Assembly (NCBI GenBank): GCA_021157965.1 | Contig: JAGGVO010000041.1 | Coordinates: 124,001 to 188,000 of the forward strand | Direction of reading: 5' to 3' | Length of the DNA stretch: 64,000 nucleotides | DNA from: Candidatus Neomarinimicrobiota bacterium | GTDB lineage: Bacteria > Fidelibacterota > Fidelibacteria > Fidelibacterales > Fidelibacteraceae | Shown here: in pieces, positions 15,453 to 44,703 of the stretch | Layout: every line of letters begins with the position of its first letter | Numbering within the stretch: the stretch's first letter is position 1 | Made by a program: the position numbers and the translations under genes | Notes under the pieces: model-generated | What the model was told of the DNA's origin: nothing | Database searches by the model: none | What the model saw: the letters and a program-made list of their open reading frames with translations, nothing else

Positions 15453-17093
15453 ATGCGACATTTGACATACATCTTATTATTCGTTCTGTTCACGGTTTCC
15501 GGATTGTTGGGAAGCCGGGAGTATCCTGAAGAGGAATATCAGAAGATTATAATTATTTTTACCAATGATATTCATGGGGGTGTGGACCGGATGGAAGCCC
15601 GGTTTATGAATCCCGAATTTCCACCGTTGATTGGCGGGGGTGCGGCAGTGGTTCATTACATTGATGCTGTCCGCGAAAAAGCTGAAAAAGAAAAAGCCCC
15701 GGTGCTGGTGGTGGATGCCGGTGATTTTTTCTCGGGCCGGCCTATTGGATCCCGAACAGAAGGAGAAGCGGTCATTAAGTATATGAATATGGCCAGATAT
15801 GATGCCATGACGTTGGGCAATCATGATTTCGATCTGGGGCTGGATGTGCTTAAGGCCCGGGCCGCCCAGGCAAATTTTCCCTTCCTCGCTGCCAATATTA
15901 TTCAGGATTCCACAGGACAGATTCCTGAATATGTGGAGCCCTACGTTATGATAGATGCTGCCGGAATTCAAATTGCCATCCTGGGGATTTCCACGACAGT
16001 CACTCCGGATTTAAGCTTTCCGGAACATGTGGCAGGACTCACCTTTCTGCCTGAAATTGAAACAGCCCAAAAGTGGGTACCCCGTTTAAAAGAGATGGGT
16101 GCCGACATTATCATTGTTGAAACCCATGCCTGGACACCCTACGACCGGAAAGCCGCCTATCAGGAACTTCTGGAAAACATGAGGCAAAAGGCAATTCGAC
16201 CGGATAAACACGGTCCCAATGCCCTGGAAATCGCAGCCATGACACCGGGTATCGATATTATATTTTCCGGTCATGTGCACAAGGGATTTTACAAACCTTA
16301 TGTGGATCCCGTCAATCATACCCTGATTTTTCAAAATTATGCCAACGGGACTAATGTGGGACATGTGAACATCTATATCCACAAAGAAACCAAAAAACTG
16401 GCCGGATATGATTTTGCCGTAGATAACAGCGCATTGATAACAATGGTAGAAGATGAATTCTGGCTGGATAAAAAGGCGGATTCTATTCTGTCTGCCGAAA
16501 AGGCCAAGGCCGAAGAAGGCTTTCATGATGTCCTGGCAGTACTGCCGAAACCTTTTCGAAGAAGCTCCGAAGGACAATCCCTGTTAGGAAATATGATCTG
16601 TGATGCTATGACCACCGTTGCCGGGGCGGATGTGGCATTTTCAAACTTCGGCGGGATACGCGCTGATTTAAATGCCGGGCCTCTTACACCAGCTGATCTT
16701 TTTAATGTGCTTCCCTTTGGGAATAATATTACCGTATTCCAGGTCTCCGGCTCCTTTATTGACAAGCTGATAGAAGACAGAGTTACAGGCAATTCGCGGG
16801 GAATGCAGGTGAGCGGCCTTAAAGTGACGGTGGACCGGCGCAAACCCAATGGCGACCGGGTTACCATTCATTCCATTCAGGGCAAACCCTTTGATCCGGA
16901 CGCGATGTATAAACTGGCTATATCCGACTACCTGGCTGAAGGAAATTCAGGCTATGGACGAGTGACAGAAATACCGGATGATCAACGTCTTGACACGGGT
17001 ATCATGATTCGTCAGGCGCTCCAGGAATATATTACGGATTATAAGGGGTTGGAAAAAACCTCGGTGGATGACCGCTGGGAAGAATTTGAATAA
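15453..17093 (+). CDS. Exported 5'-nucleotidase / 2',3'-cyclic phosphodiesterase (UshA family)
   Basis: 546 residues, the usual length for UshA-type enzymes. A signal peptide (HLTYILLFVLFTVSGLLG) directs it to the periplasm or surface. The metallophosphatase domain (about 30-320) shows all the metal-binding blocks: IFTNDIHGG, VVDAGDFFSG, LGNHDFD, VETHAW and FSGHVHKG. The C-terminal substrate-binding domain (about 350-520) has SNFGGIRADL and LPFGNNITVFQVSG, with the stacking region near the end (DYLAEGNSGYG). These enzymes strip phosphate from nucleotides, so the nucleoside can be taken up. It is the last gene of the exported-protein run and runs convergently against the hydrogenase operon, 26 bases away. 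Confidence 0.93.
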   Translation: MRHLTYILLFVLFTVSGLLGSREYPEEEYQKIIIIFTNDIHGGVDRMEARFMNPEFPPLIGGGAAVVHYIDAVREKAEKEKAPVLVVDAGDFFSGRPIGSRTEGEAVIKYMNMARYDAMTLGNHDFDLGLDVLKARAAQANFPFLAANIIQDSTGQIPEYVEPYVMIDAAGIQIAILGISTTVTPDLSFPEHVAGLTFLPEIETAQKWVPRLKEMGADIIIVETHAWTPYDRKAAYQELLENMRQKAIRPDKHGPNALEIAAMTPGIDIIFSGHVHKGFYKPYVDPVNHTLIFQNYANGTNVGHVNIYIHKETKKLAGYDFAVDNSALITMVEDEFWLDKKADSILSAEKAKAEEGFHDVLAVLPKPFRRSSEGQSLLGNMICDAMTTVAGADVAFSNFGGIRADLNAGPLTPADLFNVLPFGNNITVFQVSGSFIDKLIEDRVTGNSRGMQVSGLKVTVDRRKPNGDRVTIHSIQGKPFDPDAMYKLAISDYLAEGNSGYGRVTEIPDDQRLDTGIMIRQALQEYITDYKGLEKTSVDDRWEEFE

Positions 17094-17119: not shown

Positions 17120-18541
17120 TTAAGGATTACTTTGATTCAGAATTTTCTTTAGTTGCCGCAAGGCCAGCCTGGGGTTGTTTATCACGTTGGGACCGGCGAT
17201 GCATCCACCCTGGCAGGACATGACTTCTACAAAATTACCGGGACACTGTTTAGGATAACGCCGGATTTCCCGGAGGCTTTGCTTATCCAGGCCATCGATT
17301 TGGACTGTTTTCATGGTATGATTTGTCACGTTTTTCCGGACAGCTTCAGTTACACCGCCTGTGACGGCAAACCCCCGGCCAGCCGGTGACACATCTTCCA
17401 AAACGGCCTCATCCATTTTTTGAACATCAATTTTCAGGGCGACGAAGAGAGCTCCCAACTCTTCAATCGATAAAACCAGGTCAACAGTGTCATCTTTCCA
17501 TGCTTCATGCCGTTTGGAAACACAGGGGCCGATGAAAACAGTAACAGCTTCGGGATCATTCTTGCGAACCCTTTCCCCTGTATAATGCAGAGGTGTGGCG
17601 GTTTTGGAAACGTACGGTTTCAAATCCGGAAGGTGCTTGTTCACCGTTTCCACCCAGGCCGGACAACAGGAAGTTGTCATGAATGTATCCTCCTGAGCCA
17701 TTCTGGACTCCCATTCATGTGCTTCATGGTTTGCTGTTTCCATGGCCCCGCCGGCGACTTCCGTTACATCATCAAATCCCAGTTTTTTCAACGCAGTTAC
17801 CACCCGTCCTAAAGATGCTGAAAATTGACCTACGAGAGACGGTGCGATCATGGCAACACACCGGCGATTACTCTCCAGTGCTTTCAGGACATCCATCAAC
17901 TGGCTTCTTTCCATGATAGCACCAAAAGGACAAGCCCGCATACATTTTCCGCAATAGGTGCATTTATCGTAGTCTATCTCTTCTTTTCCCGAATCATCCT
18001 TACGGATGGCATCTACGGGACAGGCTTCTTCGCAGGGTACAGGCATATAAATGATAGCGTGATAGGGACACTCTTTCTGACATATTCCGCAGTTGATGCA
18101 CTTGTCATGCATAATGTGAGCCCTGCCATTCACAAATTCAATGGCTTCTTTCGGACAATTCAGCATACAAGGTCGGGCAACGCATCCCTGACAGGCATCT
18201 GTTACAACATAGTTAACCCGTACACAGGCGCTGCAAGCTTCGCCAATGACCGTAAGAAACGGATTTTGGGGCTTCTCTCTGTTCAGCGCATCTTTTGCGT
18301 AATCTTTCAGGGATTTGAGTTCATCCGTTTCGTCTTCAACACGGTGTCCCATTAAGGCCATTAACCGGTAACGAATCATTGCACGGTCTTTGTATATACA
18401 GCACCGGACGGATGTCCCTCCCCTGGGGAATAGCTCAAGCGGGATTCTTTCAAGGTTATCCAGTTTTTTTGAGACAAAAAGGGTGGATAACCGGGTAATC
18501 AGTTCCCTGCGGATGAGCGTTGCATTGTTGACATAATTCAT
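17120..18541 (-). CDS. [FeFe] hydrogenase, monomeric ferredoxin-type (group B-like)
   Basis: 473 residues. The N-terminal 100 residues have no cofactor motif. Cysteines at about 103-158 and 170-204 form several [4Fe-4S] sites (CINCGICQKECP, CTYCGKCMRACP). The H-cluster domain carries L1 TTSCCPAW (Cys292, Cys293), L2 FIGPCVSKRHEA (Cys340) and L3 MSCQGGCIAGP (Cys443, Cys447). Both L1 cysteines are present, including the proton-relay one, so catalysis of H2 formation or oxidation with ferredoxin is plausible. The L2/L3 spellings and ferredoxin-rich N-terminus fit group B. It is the promoter-distal gene of the rex/hydS operon, starts 10 bases after the 2Fe-2S gene and has an AGGGGG Shine-Dalgarno. 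The maturases HydE, HydF and HydG are not in this window. Confidence 0.92.
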   Translation of the reverse strand: MNYVNNATLIRRELITRLSTLFVSKKLDNLERIPLELFPRGGTSVRCCIYKDRAMIRYRLMALMGHRVEDETDELKSLKDYAKDALNREKPQNPFLTVIGEACSACVRVNYVVTDACQGCVARPCMLNCPKEAIEFVNGRAHIMHDKCINCGICQKECPYHAIIYMPVPCEEACPVDAIRKDDSGKEEIDYDKCTYCGKCMRACPFGAIMERSQLMDVLKALESNRRCVAMIAPSLVGQFSASLGRVVTALKKLGFDDVTEVAGGAMETANHEAHEWESRMAQEDTFMTTSCCPAWVETVNKHLPDLKPYVSKTATPLHYTGERVRKNDPEAVTVFIGPCVSKRHEAWKDDTVDLVLSIEELGALFVALKIDVQKMDEAVLEDVSPAGRGFAVTGGVTEAVRKNVTNHTMKTVQIDGLDKQSLREIRRYPKQCPGNFVEVMSCQGGCIAGPNVINNPRLALRQLKKILNQSNP

Positions 18542-18551
18542 CTGAGCCCCC

Positions 18552-18812
18552 TTATTTCTGAAGTATAAGAGATTCTATTTTCCGGATTATCCGGGAGATG
18601 GTTGCGTTTTCCATAATTTCGCCATCGATGCGGACAAACGGAGCCTTGCCCCGGGAGCGGTTTTCACAGTATTCCAGGCAGTTGCAACCTGTGATTATGA
18701 CGTTTTCCCGGAAATCTTCCGGAAGATAATCCTCCAGAAGCATCAGATCTGATCCCCCCATGACAAAACAATGGGTTCCCGTGCAGATTTCAACGGTAAT
18801 TTTTTCTTTCAT
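18552..18812 (-). CDS. Thioredoxin-like [2Fe-2S] ferredoxin (NuoE-like small protein)
   Basis: 86 residues with CTGTHC near the start (Cys10, Cys15) and GCNCLEYC (about 42-49), a four-cysteine set as in the thioredoxin-fold [2Fe-2S] proteins related to NuoE and HydC. It lies between the PP2C gene (9 bases) and the hydrogenase (10 bases), with GAGGTAAGGA before the ATG, so it is probably the electron-transfer partner of one of the hydrogenases. It is much shorter than NuoE and lacks the N-terminal helical part. A similar 88-residue protein is encoded near the promoter end of the same operon. Confidence 0.85.
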   Translation of the reverse strand: MKEKITVEICTGTHCFVMGGSDLMLLEDYLPEDFRENVIITGCNCLEYCENRSRGKAPFVRIDGEIMENATISRIIRKIESLILQK

Positions 18813-18821
18813 TCCTTACCT

Positions 18822-20009
18822 CTATATAAATGTTATGGTCACTTCCTTTAAATATTTTGTCTCCAAAAGCCGGGTAATCTGTTTAACAAGGTTTCGCCTG
18901 ATTTCCAATTCCACCGGGACATTGGGGTCCTGGTGAGCTTCATTGATTTTGGTTCCCACAAGAAAACTGATTTTATCCGAATTCAGAAAATGATGTATCA
19001 GCCGACCGGCTCCGTTGGAGGGCAGGTTATCCGGATTACAGCCGTTTTCCAGGATTTGTAAAACTTTACCCAGCGTTATGGATCCTTCAGTCACCAGATC
19101 CGCCCCTTCCATTGTGGATGTGGCAGGAATTTCCGGATCAAAATCTTTCAGATTCACCGTCAGCTTCCGGCCTGTTTCCCGGGCGATGATGTTTGCCGTT
19201 GTTCCTCCGCAAATAATACGCGTTCCCGGAAATGTATTGAAAAGATCTGCCATGCGGGAATCGTTCTTTTTGTCAATCGGCGGACCTGTGATTAAAAGCA
19301 GCTCTCTGGGATGACGTAAGGTCATGACTCCGCATGTCATGTCGTCATAGGGAGTTTTATGGTCATAAGCCAGAGCTTTATCCGTGATGATTCTGGCTAA
19401 AGTACGGGCATTGATTCCCGGCTGCTGTTTTAAGAGCTGACAGGCAAAATCGCTTAGTGCCTTCTCGCCCCACCCAAAGGGAAACTGTTTTGTGCCGATA
19501 CCGCTTTGTGTTATCCCGTCTGAAAGCAGGATAATTCTGTCTCCAAGCTCACCGTTGAACGCAGAGTAGTATAAGGTGTCGTGTATGCGATCCATACGCG
19601 TCAGGGACATTTCCTGCCGTTCTAAGGGCAGGGGCCGACCGTCCCGGATGACAATTGTCGGCGGGTTACCGTATTCCACCAGATAAACCCTGTTGTTATG
19701 GTCGATTTCGGCAATGGTAAACGTGGCATAGCTTATTTTTCTCTGACTGCAGACCGGCAGGGTGCGGATAATGGCCCGGGCAGTCTCTTTCAAATCATAA
19801 TGGTATGAAATATAATTTAAGGCCATGGTTGCCGTCATGGTGGACAATACATTGGCTTTCACACCGCTTCCCAACCCGTCGGAGAGGACAGATATAACCC
19901 GTTTCTCTTCTTTCAGCTTTCTTGAAAGAAAAGTATCTCCACAAACCAGTTGCCCCCGTTTGTGATATTGATGATGCTCCGTTTCAACGAAAATTTTATG
20001 TTTTTTCAT
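18822..20009 (-). CDS. SpoIIE-type PP2C serine/threonine phosphatase
   Basis: 395 residues from the ATG at 20009, which overlaps the hydS stop by 14 bases; the frame is open a further 27 codons upstream, but those would lie inside hydS. The PP2C core is visible as QLVCGDTFLSR, VISVLSDGLGSGVKAN (metal-binding Asp with the following Gly), ILLSDGITQSG and YDDMTCGVMTLR, the four acidic metal sites of PF07228. The C-terminal 120 residues (ELLLITGPPIDKK onward) contain conserved Cys and Gly residues and are not assigned. PP2C genes next to PAS-containing [FeFe] hydrogenases are a known neighbourhood and are thought to pass the H2/redox signal on by dephosphorylation. No kinase or anti-sigma partner lies next to it. 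Confidence 0.88.
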   Translation of the reverse strand: MKKHKIFVETEHHQYHKRGQLVCGDTFLSRKLKEEKRVISVLSDGLGSGVKANVLSTMTATMALNYISYHYDLKETARAIIRTLPVCSQRKISYATFTIAEIDHNNRVYLVEYGNPPTIVIRDGRPLPLERQEMSLTRMDRIHDTLYYSAFNGELGDRIILLSDGITQSGIGTKQFPFGWGEKALSDFACQLLKQQPGINARTLARIITDKALAYDHKTPYDDMTCGVMTLRHPRELLLITGPPIDKKNDSRMADLFNTFPGTRIICGGTTANIIARETGRKLTVNLKDFDPEIPATSTMEGADLVTEGSITLGKVLQILENGCNPDNLPSNGAGRLIHHFLNSDKISFLVGTKINEAHQDPNVPVELEIRRNLVKQITRLLETKYLKEVTITFI

Positions 20010-21732
20010 GCTTATTCTTGTCAGGTATATCCGATGCAAAGGATTTGACAATGGAATCCAGTACAACCTGTGTTTCGGACGCATTTTCACCCAGGAGATA
20101 AGCGATTTTTTGCACTGTCTCCAGATTTTTTTCTATCACGTTCCTTGTTTTCCGGATAATATGTTCCTTTTGCATGGCCGGTGTGGTGATATCCTGAAAA
20201 ACACCACCCACGATACGGTGTTTTTCGATGGTGAAGACAGATCCGTGAAGAATACGTTTATCATAGCGGATATCCTTATTCAGAATATCTTCACCATCTT
20301 CCAGAACTGTTCTGAAAAGATGGGCGAAAGGAATCACTTTTTCAAGCAATGCGCCTTCCATTCCCGGCCGTGCTTCGAAAACTTTCACACTGTCTTTCCC
20401 GATGAGCCGTGCAAAATTCCTGTTACATTCAACAATTTTTAATTCATCGTTGACAATCACAACACCCGAAGGAATAGAACGTAAAAGAGCATTGGCCTTT
20501 TTCTGGGCAAGTTTACGCATATAAGTCACGCACATTTCCCGTTCGGCCCTCCCGTTCAGTAATTGAATGGCGAAGTCTCGACAGCTATTGTATCCGCATC
20601 CGCCACAATTTAATTCATCTGAGGGGGTATATTTGCCTACCAGGTGTAAGGCGCGGGTGATGTCCGAATCAGAATATTCGGGCATGTGAACCGCTGTCTG
20701 TGAAAAAGTTTCTTCAATTTCTCTTCGGGGCGGCCGGGGAAGCTCTTCAGCAGGATATGCTGCCTGATTCAAAACAGCATACCTTTTAATGACCGTACTG
20801 CCGTTGTTCAGACGGGCAGGACCGTTAATACATCCCCCTTTGCATGTAAGCAATTCAATGAAGACAGGGCGGTCCGGCCGGAATTGTTCTAACCCGTTCA
20901 GAGCCATCTGTATATTTTCTACACCGGAAAAGGACATGAATGCAGGATCATGAAGTGAACATTCAGAACGCACGCCGGAAATCATCCCCCCTTCAACAGG
21001 GTACATAGCCCCTTCTCGCGCTGTTTCGGGGACAAATTTTTCTTCCGGTAATACAGGTTCTGATGCCGGATCAATTCCTTCCTGCTTAAACCAATCCAGG
21101 AGATTTTTAAAGGTAATAGCAGCATTGACCCGGTCAGGATGTCTGTCTGATTCATCCTTTTTTGCAATGCAGGGACCAATAAACACGACAGCGATGTCAG
21201 ACCCGTACATTTCTTTCAGAATGCCGGCATGGACCTGCATGGGTGATTGAAAGGATGTGACGGCCTCATGAAAAGCAGGGTAATGTTTTCGGATCAGCTC
21301 CACGGCGGATGGGCAGGCGGAAGACAGATAATATCCCGGTGTGGCATGGTCCAGCGTCCGGGCAATATGGGCAGATACTTCCTGAGCCCCCAGGGCGGTT
21401 TCTGAAACTTCAGAAAAGCCCAGACGCTTCAGGGCGCGAATCAGCTGAGATCTGTGGAGTCCCGGAAACTCGCTGATATAAGAGGGCGCCAGAGAAACAA
21501 ATACTTTTTCTTTCAACCGGATCAAATTTTTTACCCGTTCAATGTCGTTTCGGATCTTTTTTGCTCCGGACGGGCACACTTCCACGCAATGCCCGCAGAG
21601 AATGCAATCCCCGGAAATCACGGATGCTTTCCCTTCTTCAATTCGGATTGCCTTTACCGGACAGTGGCGAACACATTTATAACAGTCCTGACAATCGGTA
21701 ACACCGGTATAAATCGGATAGGAAGCATTCAT
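19996..21732 (-). CDS. hydS: Putative sensory [FeFe] hydrogenase HydS (group C, with PAS domain)
   Basis: 578 residues. Two [4Fe-4S] motifs start the protein (CQDCYKCVRHCP at 14-25, CILCGHCVEVCP at 43-54). The H-cluster domain follows, with L1 SSACPSAVEL (Cys140), L2 IGPCIAKKDE (Cys188) and L3 LTCKGGCINGP (Cys297, Cys301). Next is an extra Fe-S module (NCGGCGYNSC, Cys376/379/384 with Cys401) and then a PAS domain (about 410-520, IPSGVVIVNDELKIVECNRN). The residue that relays protons in catalytic enzymes (the first Cys of TSCCP) is alanine here, as in characterised HydS of Thermotoga. This points to a sensor with low turnover. A C-terminal helical tail carries no kinase domain, so output probably goes through the overlapping PP2C phosphatase gene. 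Confidence 0.93.
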   Translation of the reverse strand: MNASYPIYTGVTDCQDCYKCVRHCPVKAIRIEEGKASVISGDCILCGHCVEVCPSGAKKIRNDIERVKNLIRLKEKVFVSLAPSYISEFPGLHRSQLIRALKRLGFSEVSETALGAQEVSAHIARTLDHATPGYYLSSACPSAVELIRKHYPAFHEAVTSFQSPMQVHAGILKEMYGSDIAVVFIGPCIAKKDESDRHPDRVNAAITFKNLLDWFKQEGIDPASEPVLPEEKFVPETAREGAMYPVEGGMISGVRSECSLHDPAFMSFSGVENIQMALNGLEQFRPDRPVFIELLTCKGGCINGPARLNNGSTVIKRYAVLNQAAYPAEELPRPPRREIEETFSQTAVHMPEYSDSDITRALHLVGKYTPSDELNCGGCGYNSCRDFAIQLLNGRAEREMCVTYMRKLAQKKANALLRSIPSGVVIVNDELKIVECNRNFARLIGKDSVKVFEARPGMEGALLEKVIPFAHLFRTVLEDGEDILNKDIRYDKRILHGSVFTIEKHRIVGGVFQDITTPAMQKEHIIRKTRNVIEKNLETVQKIAYLLGENASETQVVLDSIVKSFASDIPDKNKHEKT

Positions 21733-21995
21733 TTGTTTCCTCCTTCCAATACGTGGAGGATTAAATCTTTAACAGAATCCGGATGAACTTCCGGATATTC
21801 CCGTCCGTTAATGTTGATGACCGGTCCCTTTGAACAGGAACCACTGCATAAGCGGCCTTCGATTGTAATCCAGTCCTCAAGGCCCTGCTCGCGGATGAAT
21901 TCCCGGAGAATCTGCAGATTGTATCGATTCCCCCGGCTAAAACAGGAACTGCCCATGCAGATTTCAAGATGCAGGGGCTGACGCTTTCTTTCCAT
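21729..21995 (-). CDS. Thioredoxin-like [2Fe-2S] ferredoxin, HydS-associated
   Basis: 88 residues from the ATG at 21995, which has AGGGAG just upstream; the much longer open frame before it runs antisense-like through rex in another frame and is not credible. Four cysteines, CMGSSC near residue 11 and CSGSC near 48, match the small thioredoxin-fold [2Fe-2S] proteins. Its start lies inside the end of rex and its stop overlaps the hydS start (ATGA), so rex, this gene and hydS are translationally linked. It probably shuttles electrons to or from HydS. It is a distant paralogue of the 86-residue protein further down the operon. Confidence 0.85.
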   Translation of the reverse strand: MERKRQPLHLEICMGSSCFSRGNRYNLQILREFIREQGLEDWITIEGRLCSGSCSKGPVININGREYPEVHPDSVKDLILHVLEGGNK

Positions 21996-22611
21996 TGTTC
22001 TCCCTGTTTTTGGTATAAAAAATAACGGTTTCCAGTTCAGATTCCAGGTCCACCTGATTGACAAATGCATCTTCAGGTACCCGCAAGGGTATGGAGGAAA
22101 AGGACATGAAGCCGCGGATCCCCAGTTGGTACAGATGATCAAAAACATCCTGTGCCACCGTATCGGGAACAGCCAAAATAGCATGGCGGATTCCGTTCTT
22201 AGGAATATATTCATCCATTTTTTTCGGAGGATATACCGGAACAGCCGTGTTTGAGATCGGGGTTTCGGCCAGGGGATCAAAGGCTGCGGCGATGCGTATC
22301 TTCCCTTTTTGAAAACCAGGATGCAATGAAAGGGCTTTGCCAAGGTTTCCATATCCGGCCAGTATCACGGGAACCGTCTGATCAAGGCCGAGAATTTCTC
22401 TTATCTTTTCAATCAGATCATGAATACGGTATCCTCCCCGTTTTTGTCCCCGGATTCCGAAAATGGAAAAGTCCTTCCGGACCTGGGCCGGCGTGGATCC
22501 GATGGCTTCTGCCAGTGTGTCAGCATGGACCCGGGCAATACCGATTGCATGCATCCGAACCAGGACCGATTTGTAACGGGACAGGCGGGTGATGTGATTT
22601 TGTACGTTCAT
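21964..22611 (-). CDS. rex: Redox-sensing transcriptional repressor Rex
   Basis: 215 residues. The N-terminal winged helix (about 1-80) has ITRLSRYKSVLVRMHA and STPAQVRKDFSIFG, the conserved DNA-recognition helix of Rex. The Rossmann domain begins with the dinucleotide loop VILAGYGNLGKAL (about 87-99), and the domain-swapped C-terminal helix is recognisable by VNQVDLESELETVIFY. Rex leaves its operators when NADH/NAD+ is high and so derepresses fermentative and hydrogen-evolving genes. The start at 22611 has AAAGGAG upstream; an in-frame start 17 codons earlier lies closer to the operator and is less likely. It is the first gene of the hydrogenase operon and is probably autoregulated through the operator 56 bases upstream. 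Confidence 0.95.
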   Translation of the reverse strand: MNVQNHITRLSRYKSVLVRMHAIGIARVHADTLAEAIGSTPAQVRKDFSIFGIRGQKRGGYRIHDLIEKIREILGLDQTVPVILAGYGNLGKALSLHPGFQKGKIRIAAAFDPLAETPISNTAVPVYPPKKMDEYIPKNGIRHAILAVPDTVAQDVFDHLYQLGIRGFMSFSSIPLRVPEDAFVNQVDLESELETVIFYTKNRENNGKKASAPAS

Positions 22612-22666
22612 TGACACTCCTTTTCTCACAAAAGTATACAAAAATAAAAAACAAAAACCCATAATA

Positions 22667-22684
22667 TTGTGAAATTATTCACAT
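22667..22684. promoter_or_regulatory. Rex operator upstream of rex
   Basis: TTGTGAAATTATTCACAT matches the Rex consensus TTGTGAA-N4-TTCACAA at all but the last base. It lies 56 bases before the rex start in the gap between rex (-) and the nucleosidase gene (+). A second half-site, ATTCACATT, lies at about 22699-22707. The direct reading is NADH-responsive autocontrol of the rex-hydS-hydrogenase operon; control of the divergent plus-strand gene is possible. Confidence 0.85.
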
Positions 22685-22795: not shown

Positions 22796-23407
22796 ATGAC
22801 CGGTATTGCGTATGGAACGCTCATTGTGTTTGCCCTGAAAGGGGAACTGCATTCTGTGTTTCAAAAGATTGATTTGAAAGCCCGTTATTCCCTGAGCAAA
22901 AGAAAGCACTTATACCATGCTGAATGGCAAGATATTCCATTTTATTTGTTACAGACAGGGGTTGGCTCTGGTGCGGTCCGGGATGCTTTAGATGCTCTTC
23001 CCTCTGATATGGAGATTTCACGGATTGTAAATGCCGGGACCTGTGGTTCTCTGAGGGATGACCTGTCGCCGGGGGATATTGTTGTGCCGGAAAAGGTTAT
23101 TGCCGAATGGGATCATACGATTCAAAAACCCGGAAAAACACCCTCAGACATTCAGACTGTAAAAACCTGTATAACAGTTGGTTGCAGCCAAAATACAGTT
23201 GAATTCAGAGAAAGGTTGAAAAATCAATTCAAAGCGGATATTGTGGATATGGAAGCCTGGGCCGTGATGGACTGGGCATGCAGACATGGAATTCCTGCCT
23301 ATGTGCTCAAATGTGTCAGCGATCAGGTTGGTCCTCAATCATCTGTTGAATTGAAACAACACCTGTCTGACTGCTCGCAGACATTAGCCGAAGCCCTTTT
23401 ATCATGA
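22796..23407 (+). CDS. Nucleoside phosphorylase-superfamily protein (MTA/SAH nucleosidase-like)
   Basis: 203 residues, PF01048 fold. Markers are LLQTGVGSGAVRDALDAL (phosphate/ribose region), VNAGTCGSLRDDLSPGDIVV (base-binding strand) and ADIVDMEAWAVMDWA with the ribose-contacting Met-Glu pair. Then comes LKCVSDQV, whose Asp matches the catalytic Asp of MTAN/futalosine hydrolase. The enzyme should split an adenosine-type nucleoside; whether the substrate is methylthioadenosine, S-adenosylhomocysteine, futalosine or another nucleoside cannot be told. The strongest Shine-Dalgarno (AAAAGGAG, 22766-22771) lies about 25 bases before this ATG and at ideal distance for an out-of-frame ATG at 22774. 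The true start is therefore uncertain. Overlaps the next gene by ATGA. Confidence 0.85.
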   Translation: MTGIAYGTLIVFALKGELHSVFQKIDLKARYSLSKRKHLYHAEWQDIPFYLLQTGVGSGAVRDALDALPSDMEISRIVNAGTCGSLRDDLSPGDIVVPEKVIAEWDHTIQKPGKTPSDIQTVKTCITVGCSQNTVEFRERLKNQFKADIVDMEAWAVMDWACRHGIPAYVLKCVSDQVGPQSSVELKQHLSDCSQTLAEALLS

Positions 23408-39710: not shown

Positions 39711-41390
39711 TTATGTGTTTTTTGGGATTTCAATTTTAAATTCCGTTCCTTCTTTACGGTCGATATCCAGCGTTCCTTTCAACTGGCGGACCAGGAGGGA
39801 TATCAGTTTTAACCCGAGTCCGGGTATTGTTTTTTCCATGGCTTCTTCAGGAAGGACATTTCCGTTATCCCTGTAGATGAGTGTAAGAGACTCATTTGCA
39901 ACCCTGAAGATGATATCAATCTGGCCGCTTGTTCTGTCGGAAAAGGCATACTTGTAGGAGTTCGTTAACAGTTCATTCAGAATAATGCCAAGCTGAAACA
40001 TGATTTTTGAATCCAGGATTTCATCATCAAGCTGTCTGATAATTTGTATTTTCGATTCATTATCATAGGATGAGATAATATAGTCAATCAGTTGGTTCAG
40101 ATAATCAGCCGAAGAAATATTGGTAAAATCGTTGGTATGCATGAGTTTGTCGTAGATCATCATCATACCTGAAACTTTATTTTTAGCTTCCTGCAGAACC
40201 GCAACCGCTCCTTTGTCTGCCATGCTCCGGGCCTGGAGGGTTAAAAAGCCTGCGATGGTATTCATGTTGTTTTTAATGCGGTGATGGACTTCCCGGAGGA
40301 GAATTTCTTTTTCAGCCAGCAGATTGCGGATTTCCTCTTCATCGGCCATTTGGGTCGTAATATCCCTGAGGATCAGAAGTGTCCCGTTATTTTCCCCCAT
40401 ATAATCCAGTATTTTAGAGGCGCGAATTTCCAAAATGATTTCTTTCCCGTTTTGTTTGTAAGGAATTATAATCTTTTCATCATTATGATGAAAATTAAGG
40501 ATTTTTTGAAACATTTCCTGGTTAAAGAGAGATGCTGCATCAGACCCCTTCTGTGTGTGCGCCTTTCCCAAAAGGCGAACAGCCGCCTGATTACAGTCTG
40601 TGATAAGATTTTCCCGGTTTAGGATCACAACCCCGTCCTGCATGGATTCAAAAACAGTTTTTGTAGCCGCCGGAAGGAGCTCGAAAAGTTTATAAGCATA
40701 GACGTTATAGATAAATATCAGCGCGGCTGCCAGGATTCCGAATGGACCAAAATCAATTTTCAGATTATTATGGGATGTCAGATTAATGATGAGAGCTATC
40801 CACGGAAACAATGAACCAATAAAAAGAAGGGAAAACCGTTTCCGGACTTTCTCATTGCATGAATACCAGGCATAGAAAAGGAGTATGGTGCCGATGAGAA
40901 AGCAAATATTTGTATAAGATAAGAAAATCCAATACCAGGGCCCTCTGCCAAAGGTCAAAAGGGACAGATGTTCCAGTTTAATGAGCCCCAGATTTTTGTA
41001 ATAAAGCTCATGGGCCGGGTTGGAATTGACAACGAAGAGAGTTATTAGCGAGAACAATATCATGAATGTTGCAATATACCGGCGGTGTTTCATAAAACGT
41101 CCCGTGTATTCCATGATAAAAAGCACCCACAAGGTCCCCAGAAAGGCTAAGCCGATATACTCAATGGACACGAACATAAAAGCTGTATCTACATCGGAGC
41201 TGTGTACTTCAAAATAGTAACCGAATGTATAAACAGCCGATGCAATCATGAGTAATGAAAAGAAAAACCCGCCCCGAACATCCCTGTTCCGGTCACTGAT
41301 AAGCCCAAATAACAGATACCCGGCACCAAAGATAGGCAGGAAATTGATGATGATTTGAAATGAATCTGCACTGAAGTCCGGATTGTACAT
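39711..41390 (-). CDS. Sensor histidine kinase (7TM, PAS, HisKA_2, HATPase)
   Basis: 559 residues. The N-terminal 225 residues contain seven membrane segments of the histidine-kinase 7TM type, with SIEYIGLAFLGTLWVLFIMEYTG as the signature region (about 75-97). A PAS domain follows (about 235-345, VFESMQDGVVILNRENLITD). The dimerisation domain is HisKA_2, with phosphoacceptor His in LLREVHHRIKNNMNT. The ATPase domain has ILNELLTNSYKYAFSD (N box), YRDNG and GLGLKLISLLV. Its C-terminal half closely resembles the next gene, so they are paralogues. No response-regulator gene is adjacent except the receiver domain fused to that next kinase. Confidence 0.9.
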   Translation of the reverse strand: MYNPDFSADSFQIIINFLPIFGAGYLLFGLISDRNRDVRGGFFFSLLMIASAVYTFGYYFEVHSSDVDTAFMFVSIEYIGLAFLGTLWVLFIMEYTGRFMKHRRYIATFMILFSLITLFVVNSNPAHELYYKNLGLIKLEHLSLLTFGRGPWYWIFLSYTNICFLIGTILLFYAWYSCNEKVRKRFSLLFIGSLFPWIALIINLTSHNNLKIDFGPFGILAAALIFIYNVYAYKLFELLPAATKTVFESMQDGVVILNRENLITDCNQAAVRLLGKAHTQKGSDAASLFNQEMFQKILNFHHNDEKIIIPYKQNGKEIILEIRASKILDYMGENNGTLLILRDITTQMADEEEIRNLLAEKEILLREVHHRIKNNMNTIAGFLTLQARSMADKGAVAVLQEAKNKVSGMMMIYDKLMHTNDFTNISSADYLNQLIDYIISSYDNESKIQIIRQLDDEILDSKIMFQLGIILNELLTNSYKYAFSDRTSGQIDIIFRVANESLTLIYRDNGNVLPEEAMEKTIPGLGLKLISLLVRQLKGTLDIDRKEGTEFKIEIPKNT

Positions 41391-41412
41391 GGTTGTCCTT
41401 CTCTTTATGATT

Positions 41413-44400
41413 TTATTTCATTGGAAAAGTAATGATACACTGCGTACCTCCCTGCCCGTGCAGTGTGATTGAACCTTTTAACTGGTCTGTGAGCAAATAA
41501 ATCAATTTTAAACCAAAGCCACCAGTTTGATCCTGAAGGGGTTTTTGGGTAAAACCAACGCCATTGTCGGAATAATGCAGGGCCAGGGTGTTGGAATCCT
41601 TTTGTAAGAACTCAAGGGTTATTTGGCCCTGACGGCCTTCGGGGAATGCGTATTTATAAGAATTGGTCAGGAGTTCATTGATGATCAGCCCGATAGTAAA
41701 CAGCGTATTGGGATCTAATGTCAGGTCCTGAATGTGTTTTTGTATTTTAACTTTCCCGGGTTCGTTGAATGAAACACTTACTTTTTGAATTAAATCATCC
41801 AGGTAAAAGCGCGTGGAAATTTCCCGGAAGTTGTCAGATTTAAAGAGTTTGTCGTAAATAGAAACCATGGTTTTAATCCGGTTTTGGGCATTCCTGAGGG
41901 CGGAAGCGGCTATTTCGTCATCCAGTTGTTTTTCCTGCAGGGATAAGAGGTTTGCCAGGGTGTTCATGTTGTTCTTTGTTCTGTGATGGATTTCCCGAAG
42001 AAGGATTTCCTTCTCCTTCAAAAGGTTTTCTATTTCTATGTACGCTTTTTTTCTCGATGTGATATCGCGGATAAATCCTTCCAGAGCAATAATTTCCCCA
42101 TTTTCTGAAAAAACACCCTGCCCCTGTTCATGAACCCATTTTTCCTTCTGATTTATATCATGAATCCGATATTGGATGCTGAAGTGTTTCTTCTCACGGA
42201 CACATTTTTGAATATCATCCCATACCATTTGTCGGTCATCGGGATGGATGATTTCGTTATACAGTGTTGACCTTACATAAAAATCTTCAGGGGGGTAACC
42301 GGTGAGTTTGATGGAACCGGGACTGACAAATTCCATCGGCCAGCCCGGTTTGTTTTTACACCGGTAAACCATACCGGGCAGATTGCCGATAAGTGTGTTG
42401 AGCATTCGCTCGCTTTCCCGGATTTTTTCCCGGATCTTATATTTTTCCGTCACATTGGAGAAGACGAGAATCACACCGCGGATTTGACCGTTTTTATCCA
42501 CGATGGGGGCCGCACTGTCCGATATGTGATATTCTTTTCCGTCTTTGGCAATCAGCACGGTATGATTCGCCAGTCCGGCAAGTTTGCCTGTTTTCAGGAC
42601 GATGGCAACAGGATCCATAACCTTCTGGCGTGTATGCACATTGATGATGTGAAAAACCGTGTGCAACGGGTGTCCTTTTGCTTCATCAAAGCGCCAGCCC
42701 GTCAGATTTTCCGCCACGGGGTTCATCTGTGTGATGTTGCCTTCAATATCTGTAGCAATCACGGCATCTCCGATGGAGTGAAGGGTGATGGACAGATATT
42801 CTTCTCTTTCGCGAAGGGCTTCTTGGGCTTTTTTCCGCGCGGTGATATCATGGACAATGGAATAGAGAAGATGTTTTCCGCCGATGTCGATGGGACCGCT
42901 GTATACCTCCACATCCCGGATTTTTCCGTTGGCAAGCCGGTGTTTAAAAACGAATTGCTTTTTCCCTCCAGTCTGTGCTTCTGTCATTGCTGCTTTGATT
43001 TTTTCAAATGGGAGGGTGTTGATTTCAGATATATTCATTCCACGAAGTTTTTCAATTGGCCAGCCATAATAAGCAACTGCCGCCCGGTTCGCGTTTGTGA
43101 TGTTGCCTGTTTCAGGGTCTAAAAGGATCATGACAGAATTATTATCGTTGAAAAGGGCTTTATATCTGGATTTGCTTTCTTTCAGGATGGTTTCCTGTTT
43201 CAAGCGTTCAGTAATATCCCAGGCCACTGCAATCACAACTTTTTTACCAAAATAGGTGCCCGGTGAAAGACTGATTTCTTTGGGAAAAATCGTGCCGTCC
43301 TTTTTACGGGCCCGGAATATCAGCCGTTCCCGATTTCCGTTGTATGCATTTTTAATCTGTTGATCAATAGTCTTTAAATCATTTTTGCCTGGAGCTGCCA
43401 GAAAATGGTGGGTTTTACCAAGGATTTCTTTCTTGCTGTACCCGTACATTTCTTCGACCGTGTCATTCATAAACAGAATGATTCCCTCCGGATCTTGTAT
43501 AAAAACAGCTTCAGAAATGCTGTTGATTATATCTTTGTACGTTTTTTCCGAAAGTTTCAGTTTTTCTTCGGCAGTTTTACGGTCTGTGATGTCTGCAATG
43601 GATATCAGCCCCGCCGGTTTTCCCTGATAAGTTATTGACCGTCCGTTCAGATACACCCAGCAATCTGATCCGTTTTTTTTCTTAATGATGAGTTCATAGG
43701 AATTCGTGGTTTCCTGGCCGGATTGCCTTTTCAATCCCCGATCTTTTACCAAAGACTTATAATCAGGATGAACAATCTCCCAGAATTTTTGCCGATAGAG
43801 TTCTTCTGCACTGAATCCGGAGATTTGTTCGCCGGCAGGGTTGGTATAAACCCAATAGTTATCCTGGTAGATCATGATGGCAAAAGGTGAGGCTTCAGCG
43901 AGTGAACGAAATTTTTCTTCGCTTTCCTTTAATTGGTTTTCAATACGAGTCTGCTCTGTAATATCCCGTATATAAGCGCCAACCCCCATTTTATTCCGGG
44001 CAAGAGGAACCGGGAAATTTCGGGTTTCATAGATTTTCCCGTCAATCTCCTCCTTTGAGATGATGATTTTATTTTCCCGGATGGCCAATTCGTCTGACCT
44101 GCGGTACTTTTCGGCATGTTGGCGGGGTAACAGATCAAAATCGGTTTTACCCAGAATCTCCCGCTTTCTTCTGTTAAAAAATCGGGCATTGGCATCATTG
44201 ATCAGTATGTAACGGAATGATTCATCTTTCAGATATGCAAAATCATCAATAGAATTGATAAAGATTTCGTGTTTGCGTTCACTCTCTTCCAGGGCACAGA
44301 GCTGTTTTTGGAGTTTTATATGGGCATCATGAAGCTCAAACGCCATCTCAATGGATGAGAGAAGGACAAAATCACCGGAGTTTTTTATTACATAACCATA

Positions 44401-44703
44401 CCGGGTGATAGTGCGGACCTTTTCAACCATTTCTTCTTCAGAATGTGATGTCAGAAACACAATGGGTATGCTGTGCTTTTTAAGAATGATTTTTGCGGTT
44501 TCCGGTCCGTCCATGCCCGGTCCCAGGTCAATATCCATTAAAATCAGATCAATATCCGCATGATTGTTCACGATTTCCAGGGCTGATTCGCCACAATCAG
44601 CGATCCGTGTTTTATACCCGTGATCTTCAAGGAGCATGGCTGTATCCAAAGCAATCAGATGTTCGTCTTCGACAATGAGGATTGTCAGATTTTTTTTAAT
44701 CAT
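41413..44703 (-). CDS. Hybrid sensor: receiver domain, six PAS domains, HisKA_2 histidine kinase
   Basis: 1096 residues. An N-terminal receiver domain (about 7-125: ILIVEDEH, phospho-acceptor in LILMDIDLGPG, FLTSHS, switch Lys in YVIKNSG) is followed by six PAS domains at roughly 140-255, 262-380, 385-505, 510-635, 640-765 and 770-890. Several of these end in the PAC motif DITxRKxAEE. The transmitter has His in LLREIHHRTKNNMNT, the N box LIINELLTNSYKYAFPE, DNGVGF and GGFGLKLIYLL. No membrane segment is visible, so it should sense cytosolic signals, probably redox or small ligands. A receiver in front of the kinase is the reverse of most hybrids; it may take phosphate from the 7TM kinase encoded 22 bases downstream. 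Confidence 0.9.
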   Translation of the reverse strand: MIKKNLTILIVEDEHLIALDTAMLLEDHGYKTRIADCGESALEIVNNHADIDLILMDIDLGPGMDGPETAKIILKKHSIPIVFLTSHSEEEMVEKVRTITRYGYVIKNSGDFVLLSSIEMAFELHDAHIKLQKQLCALEESERKHEIFINSIDDFAYLKDESFRYILINDANARFFNRRKREILGKTDFDLLPRQHAEKYRRSDELAIRENKIIISKEEIDGKIYETRNFPVPLARNKMGVGAYIRDITEQTRIENQLKESEEKFRSLAEASPFAIMIYQDNYWVYTNPAGEQISGFSAEELYRQKFWEIVHPDYKSLVKDRGLKRQSGQETTNSYELIIKKKNGSDCWVYLNGRSITYQGKPAGLISIADITDRKTAEEKLKLSEKTYKDIINSISEAVFIQDPEGIILFMNDTVEEMYGYSKKEILGKTHHFLAAPGKNDLKTIDQQIKNAYNGNRERLIFRARKKDGTIFPKEISLSPGTYFGKKVVIAVAWDITERLKQETILKESKSRYKALFNDNNSVMILLDPETGNITNANRAAVAYYGWPIEKLRGMNISEINTLPFEKIKAAMTEAQTGGKKQFVFKHRLANGKIRDVEVYSGPIDIGGKHLLYSIVHDITARKKAQEALREREEYLSITLHSIGDAVIATDIEGNITQMNPVAENLTGWRFDEAKGHPLHTVFHIINVHTRQKVMDPVAIVLKTGKLAGLANHTVLIAKDGKEYHISDSAAPIVDKNGQIRGVILVFSNVTEKYKIREKIRESERMLNTLIGNLPGMVYRCKNKPGWPMEFVSPGSIKLTGYPPEDFYVRSTLYNEIIHPDDRQMVWDDIQKCVREKKHFSIQYRIHDINQKEKWVHEQGQGVFSENGEIIALEGFIRDITSRKKAYIEIENLLKEKEILLREIHHRTKNNMNTLANLLSLQEKQLDDEIAASALRNAQNRIKTMVSIYDKLFKSDNFREISTRFYLDDLIQKVSVSFNEPGKVKIQKHIQDLTLDPNTLFTIGLIINELLTNSYKYAFPEGRQGQITLEFLQKDSNTLALHYSDNGVGFTQKPLQDQTGGFGLKLIYLLTDQLKGSITLHGQGGTQCIITFPMK

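Follow-up and report, generated by a model that had tools for sequence, protein, structure and literature searches.

The signal output of the group C sensory [FeFe] hydrogenases is stated to be unknown in a passage of PMC11376134, and gene clusters that place such an enzyme beside a protein phosphatase are the natural point of comparison for the locus described here. This locus is a six-gene operon encoding a sensory hydrogenase (HydS), a PP2C phosphatase and the redox repressor Rex, found in a 64,000-nucleotide stretch of DNA from Candidatus Neomarinimicrobiota bacterium (assembly GCA_021157965.1, contig JAGGVO010000041.1, positions 124,001 to 188,000 of the forward strand, or G000:C41:124001-188000 in our genome set), referred to below as the window. 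We consider it rather probable that HydS and the phosphatase constitute a split switch of the RsbP/RsbU type, in which the terminal helix of HydS would drive a linker-less PP2C in trans while Rex sets expression of the whole.

Several systems resemble the operon to some extent. In Ruminococcus albus 7, a cluster on pRUMAL01 (locus L035 of our collection) runs rex-adhE-phosphotransferase-[2Fe-2S]-[2Fe-2S]-hydS-PP2C-hydA2; according to the relevant passages of PMC6776011, this cluster was 111-fold lower in co-culture with an H2 consumer, where H2 was kept low, and the phosphatase was named as its probable output. Monoglobus has the order [2Fe-2S]-hydS-PP2C-group B hydrogenase. The hfsABCD operon of Thermoanaerobacterium saccharolyticum is described, in passages of PMC11837493 and PMC5707799, as encoding a PAS-containing hydrogenase (HfsB), a serine phosphatase (HfsC) and a HydA2-like hydrogenase (HfsD), and deletion of hfsB is reported to raise both hydrogenase activity and ethanol in a manner dependent on hfsC and hfsD (a passage of PMC5707799). 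Phosphatases controlled through a helix are known from Bacillus subtilis, where a PAS domain or other sensor, a helical linker and a SpoIIE-type PPM phosphatase together form the RsbP and RsbU switches and the linker activates the phosphatase (as stated in parts of PMC12143880 and PMC3183031).

The window operon lies on the minus strand, from 22611 to 17120, in the order rex, [2Fe-2S], hydS, PP2C, [2Fe-2S], group B hydrogenase. Its features, in window positions, are these:

21964..22611, minus strand: rex, NADH-responsive repressor of 215 amino acids (PF06971 and PF02629; NF003995 175.7 bits, cut-off 126)
21729..21995, minus strand: NuoE-like, thioredoxin-like [2Fe-2S] protein of 88 amino acids, adjoining HydS (PF01257, 33.8 bits)
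19996..21732, minus strand: hydS, group C sensory [FeFe] hydrogenase of 578 amino acids (PF02906, 159 bits; PF04060; PAS_8)
18822..20009, minus strand: SpoIIE/RsbU-type PP2C of 395 amino acids (PF07228, 55.9 bits, cut-off 25; fold model)
18552..18812, minus strand: second small thioredoxin-like [2Fe-2S] protein of 86 amino acids, adjoining the group B hydrogenase (PF01257, 21.2 bits)
17120..18541, minus strand: group B [FeFe] hydrogenase of 473 amino acids, a probable ferredoxin-dependent H2 producer (TIGR04105)
22667..22684, no strand assigned: Rex-box-like palindrome TTGTGAAATTATTCACAT, probable Rex operator (one mismatch to TTGTGAANNNNTTCACAA)

The first-pass annotation of this DNA had proposed a tight operon of six genes, and all six are present with their domains matched. 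rex and the first [2Fe-2S] gene overlap by 32 nucleotides, the latter and hydS by 4, and hydS and the PP2C gene by 14; the gaps on either side of the second [2Fe-2S] gene are 9 nucleotides (from PP2C) and 10 nucleotides (to the hydrogenase). Most of the assignments made at that stage also stand: Rex as an NADH sensor (a family match above cut-off and a Rex-box-like site at its own promoter), HydS as a sensory hydrogenase (its four H-cluster cysteines are intact and a PAS domain is present), the phosphatase as a PP2C (PF07228 above cut-off and four metal-binding aspartates), and two small [2Fe-2S] proteins, one per hydrogenase. The first of these has its cysteines spaced C-x4-C and C-x3-C; the second falls below the PF01257 cut-off (21.2 versus 24.8 bits) but has NuoE-like cysteine spacing and could be aligned with its counterpart at locus L061. 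What had been called a catalytic-type [FeFe] hydrogenase is indeed a hydrogenase, but one of group B (TIGR04105 match of 544.4 bits, cut-off 450) rather than of the prototypical group A.

The R. albus cluster and the window share rex in first place, [2Fe-2S] genes, hydS, a SpoIIE-type PP2C with the same C-terminal domain and a TIGR04105 hydrogenase in last place (577 bits for R. albus hydA2), and as in the hfs-type arrangement hydS is followed directly by PP2C and then by a catalytic [FeFe] hydrogenase. Identities between the two are 32% for HydS, 33% for PP2C and 36% for the hydrogenase. R. albus alone has adhE and an APH-like phosphotransferase, both absent from the window operon, and it carries both [2Fe-2S] genes ahead of hydS; the phosphotransferase found no match as a query in the host genome, in a search run without a positive control. 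The hfsABCD operon is similar by description in uniting a PAS hydrogenase, a phosphatase and a hydrogenase, and different in that the passages concerned describe no rex and say that HfsA resembles part of hydrogenase large subunits. Comparison of gene order with other genomes, which the first-pass annotation had recommended, identified the closest layout at L061, in the Bacteroidia genome G543, where the last five genes occur in identical order ([2Fe-2S]-hydS-PP2C-[2Fe-2S]-group B hydrogenase, TIGR04105 534 bits) without rex in front. The arrangement is not new, because R. albus, Monoglobus and hfsABCD provide precedents; the operon is a Neomarinimicrobiota example of a layout seen before in gut fermenters and in heat-loving ones.

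HydS itself is built, by motif alignment, of two [4Fe-4S] motifs, an H-domain, a Cx2Cx4Cx16C motif, a PAS domain with a DIT motif and a C-terminal helix. The N-terminal [4Fe-4S] region and the H-domain match PF00037/PF13237 and PF02906, the four H-cluster cysteines lie in the motifs SSACP, GPC and TCKGGC, and the four-cysteine motif (C376, C379, C384 and C401) is followed by PAS_8 (23.4 bits, cut-off 21.8), which is the C-terminal succession by which group C (M2f) is defined in a passage of PMC8163306. The same parts (N-terminal [4Fe-4S], H-domain, C-terminal four-cysteine motif and PAS) are described for TmHydS of Thermotoga maritima, which has been studied biochemically, whereas the window protein is known from its sequence. 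At the place of the proton-relay cysteine Cys299 the window HydS has alanine (SSACPS), a substitution reported, in the relevant part of PMC10055695, for about 43% of sensory sequences. The cysteine is retained in the HydS of L061, L035 and L037, so its loss is not universal. The protein ends in the DIT motif followed by a helix of the pattern V-I-x-K-N-x6-Q-x-I-A-x-L-L-G-E.

Residues 1-234 of the phosphatase form its PP2C domain, and residues 236-395 a C-terminal domain that is conserved. A model built from a 4-row alignment (mean predicted local distance difference test score, pLDDT, 78; predicted template modelling score 0.75) places residues 3-234, the part covered by the VIA-align comparison, in the SpoIIE/RsbU fold, with 3pu9 (Z 22.5, root-mean-square deviation 3.1, 212 residues aligned) and 5ucg (Z 21.6, deviation 2.8, 204 aligned) as matches. 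The catalytic fold begins at residue 7 of the model and has no N-terminal linker ahead of it. In RsbP and RsbU the linker and phosphatase form one chain with a fused N-terminal sensor; here the PAS domain and helix belong to the hydrogenase, encoded by a separate gene, and the PP2C carries an extra C-terminal domain. The metal-binding aspartates D44, D164, D222 and D223 are invariant across all 26 PP2C sequences compared (see below), and a search with viral models returned PP2C matches and weak rows only.

The C-terminal domain (window 18822-19304) is likewise conserved in all 26 loci. It is alpha/beta in the model, where it was folded as part of the whole PP2C; its Gly-Pro and Thr-Glu-Gly are invariant and its Asn nearly so, a pattern suggestive of a site for a ligand or phosphate. 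In the Bacteroidota, where 17 of 395 genomes have it, the domain always lay in frames of 384-447 amino acids, together with PP2C. With E up to 5, Pfam produced no credible match for 8 of 10 members, and the NCBIfam matches of 10 members were scattered, with E of 0.0019 or worse, and are taken as chance. Phosphoheptose isomerase (E 0.036, profile against solved structures) and methylglyoxal synthase (Foldseek E 0.0089) were considered as relatives and found unconvincing; the domain may still have a known fold.

Evidence that HydS and PP2C belong together comes from the recurrence of the pair. A total of 26 PP2C loci were compared (the window, L012, L013, L014, L035, L036, L037, L060, L061, L062 and L092-L107), after merging of duplicates (L006 and L008 with L014; L040, L041 and L075 with L013 and L012; L057-L059 with L060-L062; L076-L091 with L092-L107) and omission of other PP2Cs (G008, at 26 bits and without the C-terminal domain, and weak matches in G245 and G246). 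A contig profile search built from a two-sequence alignment gave 3 loci, and the Firmicutes are represented by three plasmid-collection records. A PAS-helix sensor stands immediately upstream of PP2C in 24 of the 26: a full-length HydS on the same strand in 21 (counting L101, where an unassigned 102-amino-acid frame lies between the two) and a 168-amino-acid PAS and helix protein in 3. These locus counts are not counts of independent events, because L092-L094 hardly differ from one another, nor does L100 from L102. That said, the linkage that the first-pass annotation had seen in one operon recurs in distant genomes and beyond chance. HydS and PP2C co-evolve: across the 21 loci their distance matrices correlate at r = 0.894, a value equalled in none of 5000 label permutations, of which the best reached 0.497. 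Four groups are starred in both trees, namely window, L014 and L061-type; L012, L013 and L060; R. albus and Monoglobus; and 13 other Bacteroidota. In the PP2C tree the window belongs to a group of 7 rows, the branching order of which is not fixed. A hydS in the same clade lacking the phosphatase had been named beforehand as a finding that would count against the linkage; in both of the Neomarinimicrobiota genomes that carry HydS, PP2C lies directly downstream. The frequency of HydS without PP2C was assessed in this phylum and in the three Firmicutes records.

What surrounds the pair varies. Group B hydrogenase genes follow it in 4 of the 26 loci (window, L061, L035 and L037), HydABC-type genes lie beside it in 12 (L014, L096, L097 and L099-L107), and rex is nearby in 6 (window, L012, L035, L098, L100 and L102). 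The sensor head varies as well. Three sets have no adjoining hydrogenase and consist of [2Fe-2S], PAS and helix, and PP2C genes (L092 5512-7455, L093 5751-7694 and L094 7021-8970). Their 168-amino-acid proteins match PAS_9, PAS or PAS_4 above cut-off and no hydrogenase or Fe-S model, and the L092 protein aligns over its PAS domain and helix to the HydS of the window (E 2e-9) and to that of R. albus (E 1e-20). These PAS-only sensors amount to one event, because the genomes concerned, related Bacteroidota, are close relatives. The four-cysteine Fe-S motif is kept in 21 of 21 full-length HydS. Two of these, HydS-like proteins (L012 8121-9992 and L013 377-2236), have lost the H-cluster cysteines and kept the Fe-S motifs, helix and PP2C partner; frames resembling hypE, hypA and hypB, [NiFe] hydrogenase maturation genes named by sequence appearance, come directly after the pair in L013.

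Expression of the window operon probably responds to Rex. The start of rex at 22611 is preceded by an AAAGGAG-like site; an in-frame upstream ATG at 22662 is a less likely start. The palindrome TTGTGAAATTATTCACAT lies 55 nucleotides ahead of the start at 22611, one mismatch away from TTGTGAANNNNTTCACAA, which we take to be the Rex box consensus. When the region was shuffled 300 times, one shuffle matched the Rex box equally well. Across the 2.3 Mb genome there are 15 sites with at most two mismatches, versus 8 for a control pattern; two have a single mismatch, one within a pepD-like frame and the other, that of the operon, alone in lying outside a coding frame. No comparable Rex box was found ahead of the two group A6 hydrogenase operons of the host or its second rex gene (two in all). 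The second rex gene, on contig C15 (L073 1009-1812), is divergent from a TrkA/potassium-channel-like gene.

Taken together, these features suggest the following sequence of events. Rex would repress the operon from the upstream palindrome and release it at high NADH, as expected from its family and the site, and the group B hydrogenase, judging from its relatives, would dispose of ferredoxin electrons as H2. HydS, with its H-cluster bound, would act as a sensor of H2 or redox state, and a slow one, because of the alanine at the proton-relay position; the small [2Fe-2S] protein may also pass electrons to it. Depending on its state, this head would shift the PAS domain and the helix after the DIT motif, and the helix would then act in trans on PP2C, replacing the missing linker much as the PAS-coil of RsbP and the linker of RsbU act in cis. 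PP2C would finally dephosphorylate Ser/Thr of a protein encoded elsewhere. H2 sensing, helix docking, the sign of the effect and the substrate are all points that we infer.

A number of observations weigh against such a scheme. Two of the 26 PP2C loci, L036 and L062, have no adjoining sensor. In Acetoanaerobium (L036) HydS and PP2C are about 880 kb apart; the record, NZ_CP154629.1, is a 2.6 Mb 'plasmid' of Acetoanaerobium noterae that resembles a chromosome filed as a plasmid. At L062 (7400-9226) G543 encodes PP2C a second time; the gene has no hydrogenase in its vicinity and comes after one for a 208-amino-acid protein without a Pfam match. The helix is not the best conserved part of HydS (mean conservation 0.43 versus 0.55-0.58 for the Fe-S regions), and the model of HydS, of low quality at a mean pLDDT of 53, was left unused; no HydS-PP2C structure or contact was obtained. 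Work on TamHydS, a group D enzyme, opposes signalling by redox change of the C-terminal cluster (a passage of PMC13104023). As for Rex, the other rex-linked loci tested have no Rex box: L012, L035 and L100 show none within four mismatches, and L098 has one similar site with three mismatches. Finally, the host genome yielded no Pkinase-family protein (the control was positive in 12 of 14 genomes), and its 20 HATPase_c_2 matches, all in frames of at least 272 amino acids, include no stand-alone RsbW-like kinase.

These last results bear on two statements of the first-pass annotation. That the phosphatase target is not encoded nearby is borne out, the operon having neither a kinase nor a substrate gene; the description of the operon as a full signalling unit is for the same reason overstated. 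The search for a kinase or anti-sigma partner that had been advised thus produced neither a Pkinase nor a stand-alone RsbW, and one candidate of another kind. Two STAS matches occur in the genome, one of them above cut-off on another contig (G000:C28:11330), a SpoIIAA/RsbV-like protein of 165 amino acids with a D-S-T-G motif, and by its sequence this would be the sole obvious candidate substrate of the PP2C. Two adjacent minus-strand frames of the window (39711-44703; 559 and 1096 amino acids) have histidine-kinase-type ATPase domains; the longer starts like a response regulator, and the pair represents ordinary two-component signalling.

The best of the alternatives is that the signal is not H2 but the NADH/ferredoxin redox state, conveyed to the sensor by the small [2Fe-2S] protein, with the H-cluster one of several redox inputs. 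Of the 13 loci in the same half of the PP2C tree as the window, 10 have a small [2Fe-2S] gene ahead of the sensor, among them the three PAS-only loci, and the L012 and L013 proteins retain Fe-S motifs, helix and PP2C without the H-cluster cysteines. That said, all four H-cluster cysteines are kept in 19 of the 21 full-length HydS, the exceptions being L012 and L013, which would be unexpected if H2 chemistry were useless, and since the PAS-only loci are near-identical and L012 and L013 are sisters, the exceptions reduce to about two events. We regard a purely redox-driven sensor as unlikely, at perhaps a chance in four.

A second alternative would have HydS assist the neighbouring hydrogenase in electron transfer or catalysis, with PP2C an independent regulator that happens to lie in the same operon. 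Characterised HydS homologues do turn over H2, slowly (a passage of PMC11376134), at 16 of the 26 loci HydS has a group B or HydABC-type hydrogenase for a neighbour, and HydS and PP2C are separate in Acetoanaerobium. But PP2C follows HydS whichever hydrogenase is nearby and also follows PAS-only proteins without one, and the HydS and PP2C distances match, all of which makes this explanation improbable.

The operon is patchy in Neomarinimicrobiota, because only 2 of 245 genomes of the phylum carry HydS, as judged by a match to its FeS-PAS-helix part over most of its length; some match occurs in 28 of the 245, the others being weak or covering at most one third of the query. It was possibly acquired, and import and repeated loss are both possible. 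Recent import or assembly chimerism without any role in the host is a very improbable reading of this pattern: the genomes listed from the same genus (5), family (13) and order (1) all lack full-length HydS, and full-length PP2C occurs in only 2 of 199 phylum genomes, the third match there being the G008 protein without the C-terminal domain, but the operon sits inside a 322 kb contig at a G + C content of 0.475 versus 0.462 for the window, third-position values of its four long genes differ from the window mean by no more than 1.5 standard deviations, all frames are open with key residues intact, and a Rex site stands in front.

The host genome is 2.3 Mb and 96% complete. Besides HydS and the group B enzyme it encodes two group A6 [FeFe] hydrogenases, each accompanied by NuoE- and NuoF-like genes, and maturation of the H-cluster is likely because of these two further enzymes. 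The operon is flanked by oppositely oriented genes, a 5'-nucleotidase-like gene ending at 17093 and a nucleoside phosphorylase-like gene starting at 22796. No terminator-like site is listed between the operon genes on the minus strand, with one weak site inside rex, in scans whose promoter and terminator numbers were no higher than in shuffles. PADLOC gave no match.

What the comparison adds is a view across the family, and this points to a phosphatase switch that is split and whose heads may be exchanged. The hydrogenase would be one such head; in its place some relatives have a PAS-only protein and its [2Fe-2S] partner, and others a hydrogenase-derived head without the H-cluster. We propose tentatively, at somewhat less than even confidence, that a conserved split PAS-helix/PP2C switch underlies the whole family, in which the C-terminal domain of PP2C perhaps provides a metabolite input beside redox state or H2. 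The comparison extends the arrangement to Neomarinimicrobiota and Bacteroidota, brings to notice an undescribed domain on the phosphatase, and supplies natural controls in the PAS-only sensors and the heads without H-cluster cysteines. For the output of group C hydrogenases it offers a testable answer, that a PAS-helix unit may act in trans on a linker-less SpoIIE-type PP2C.

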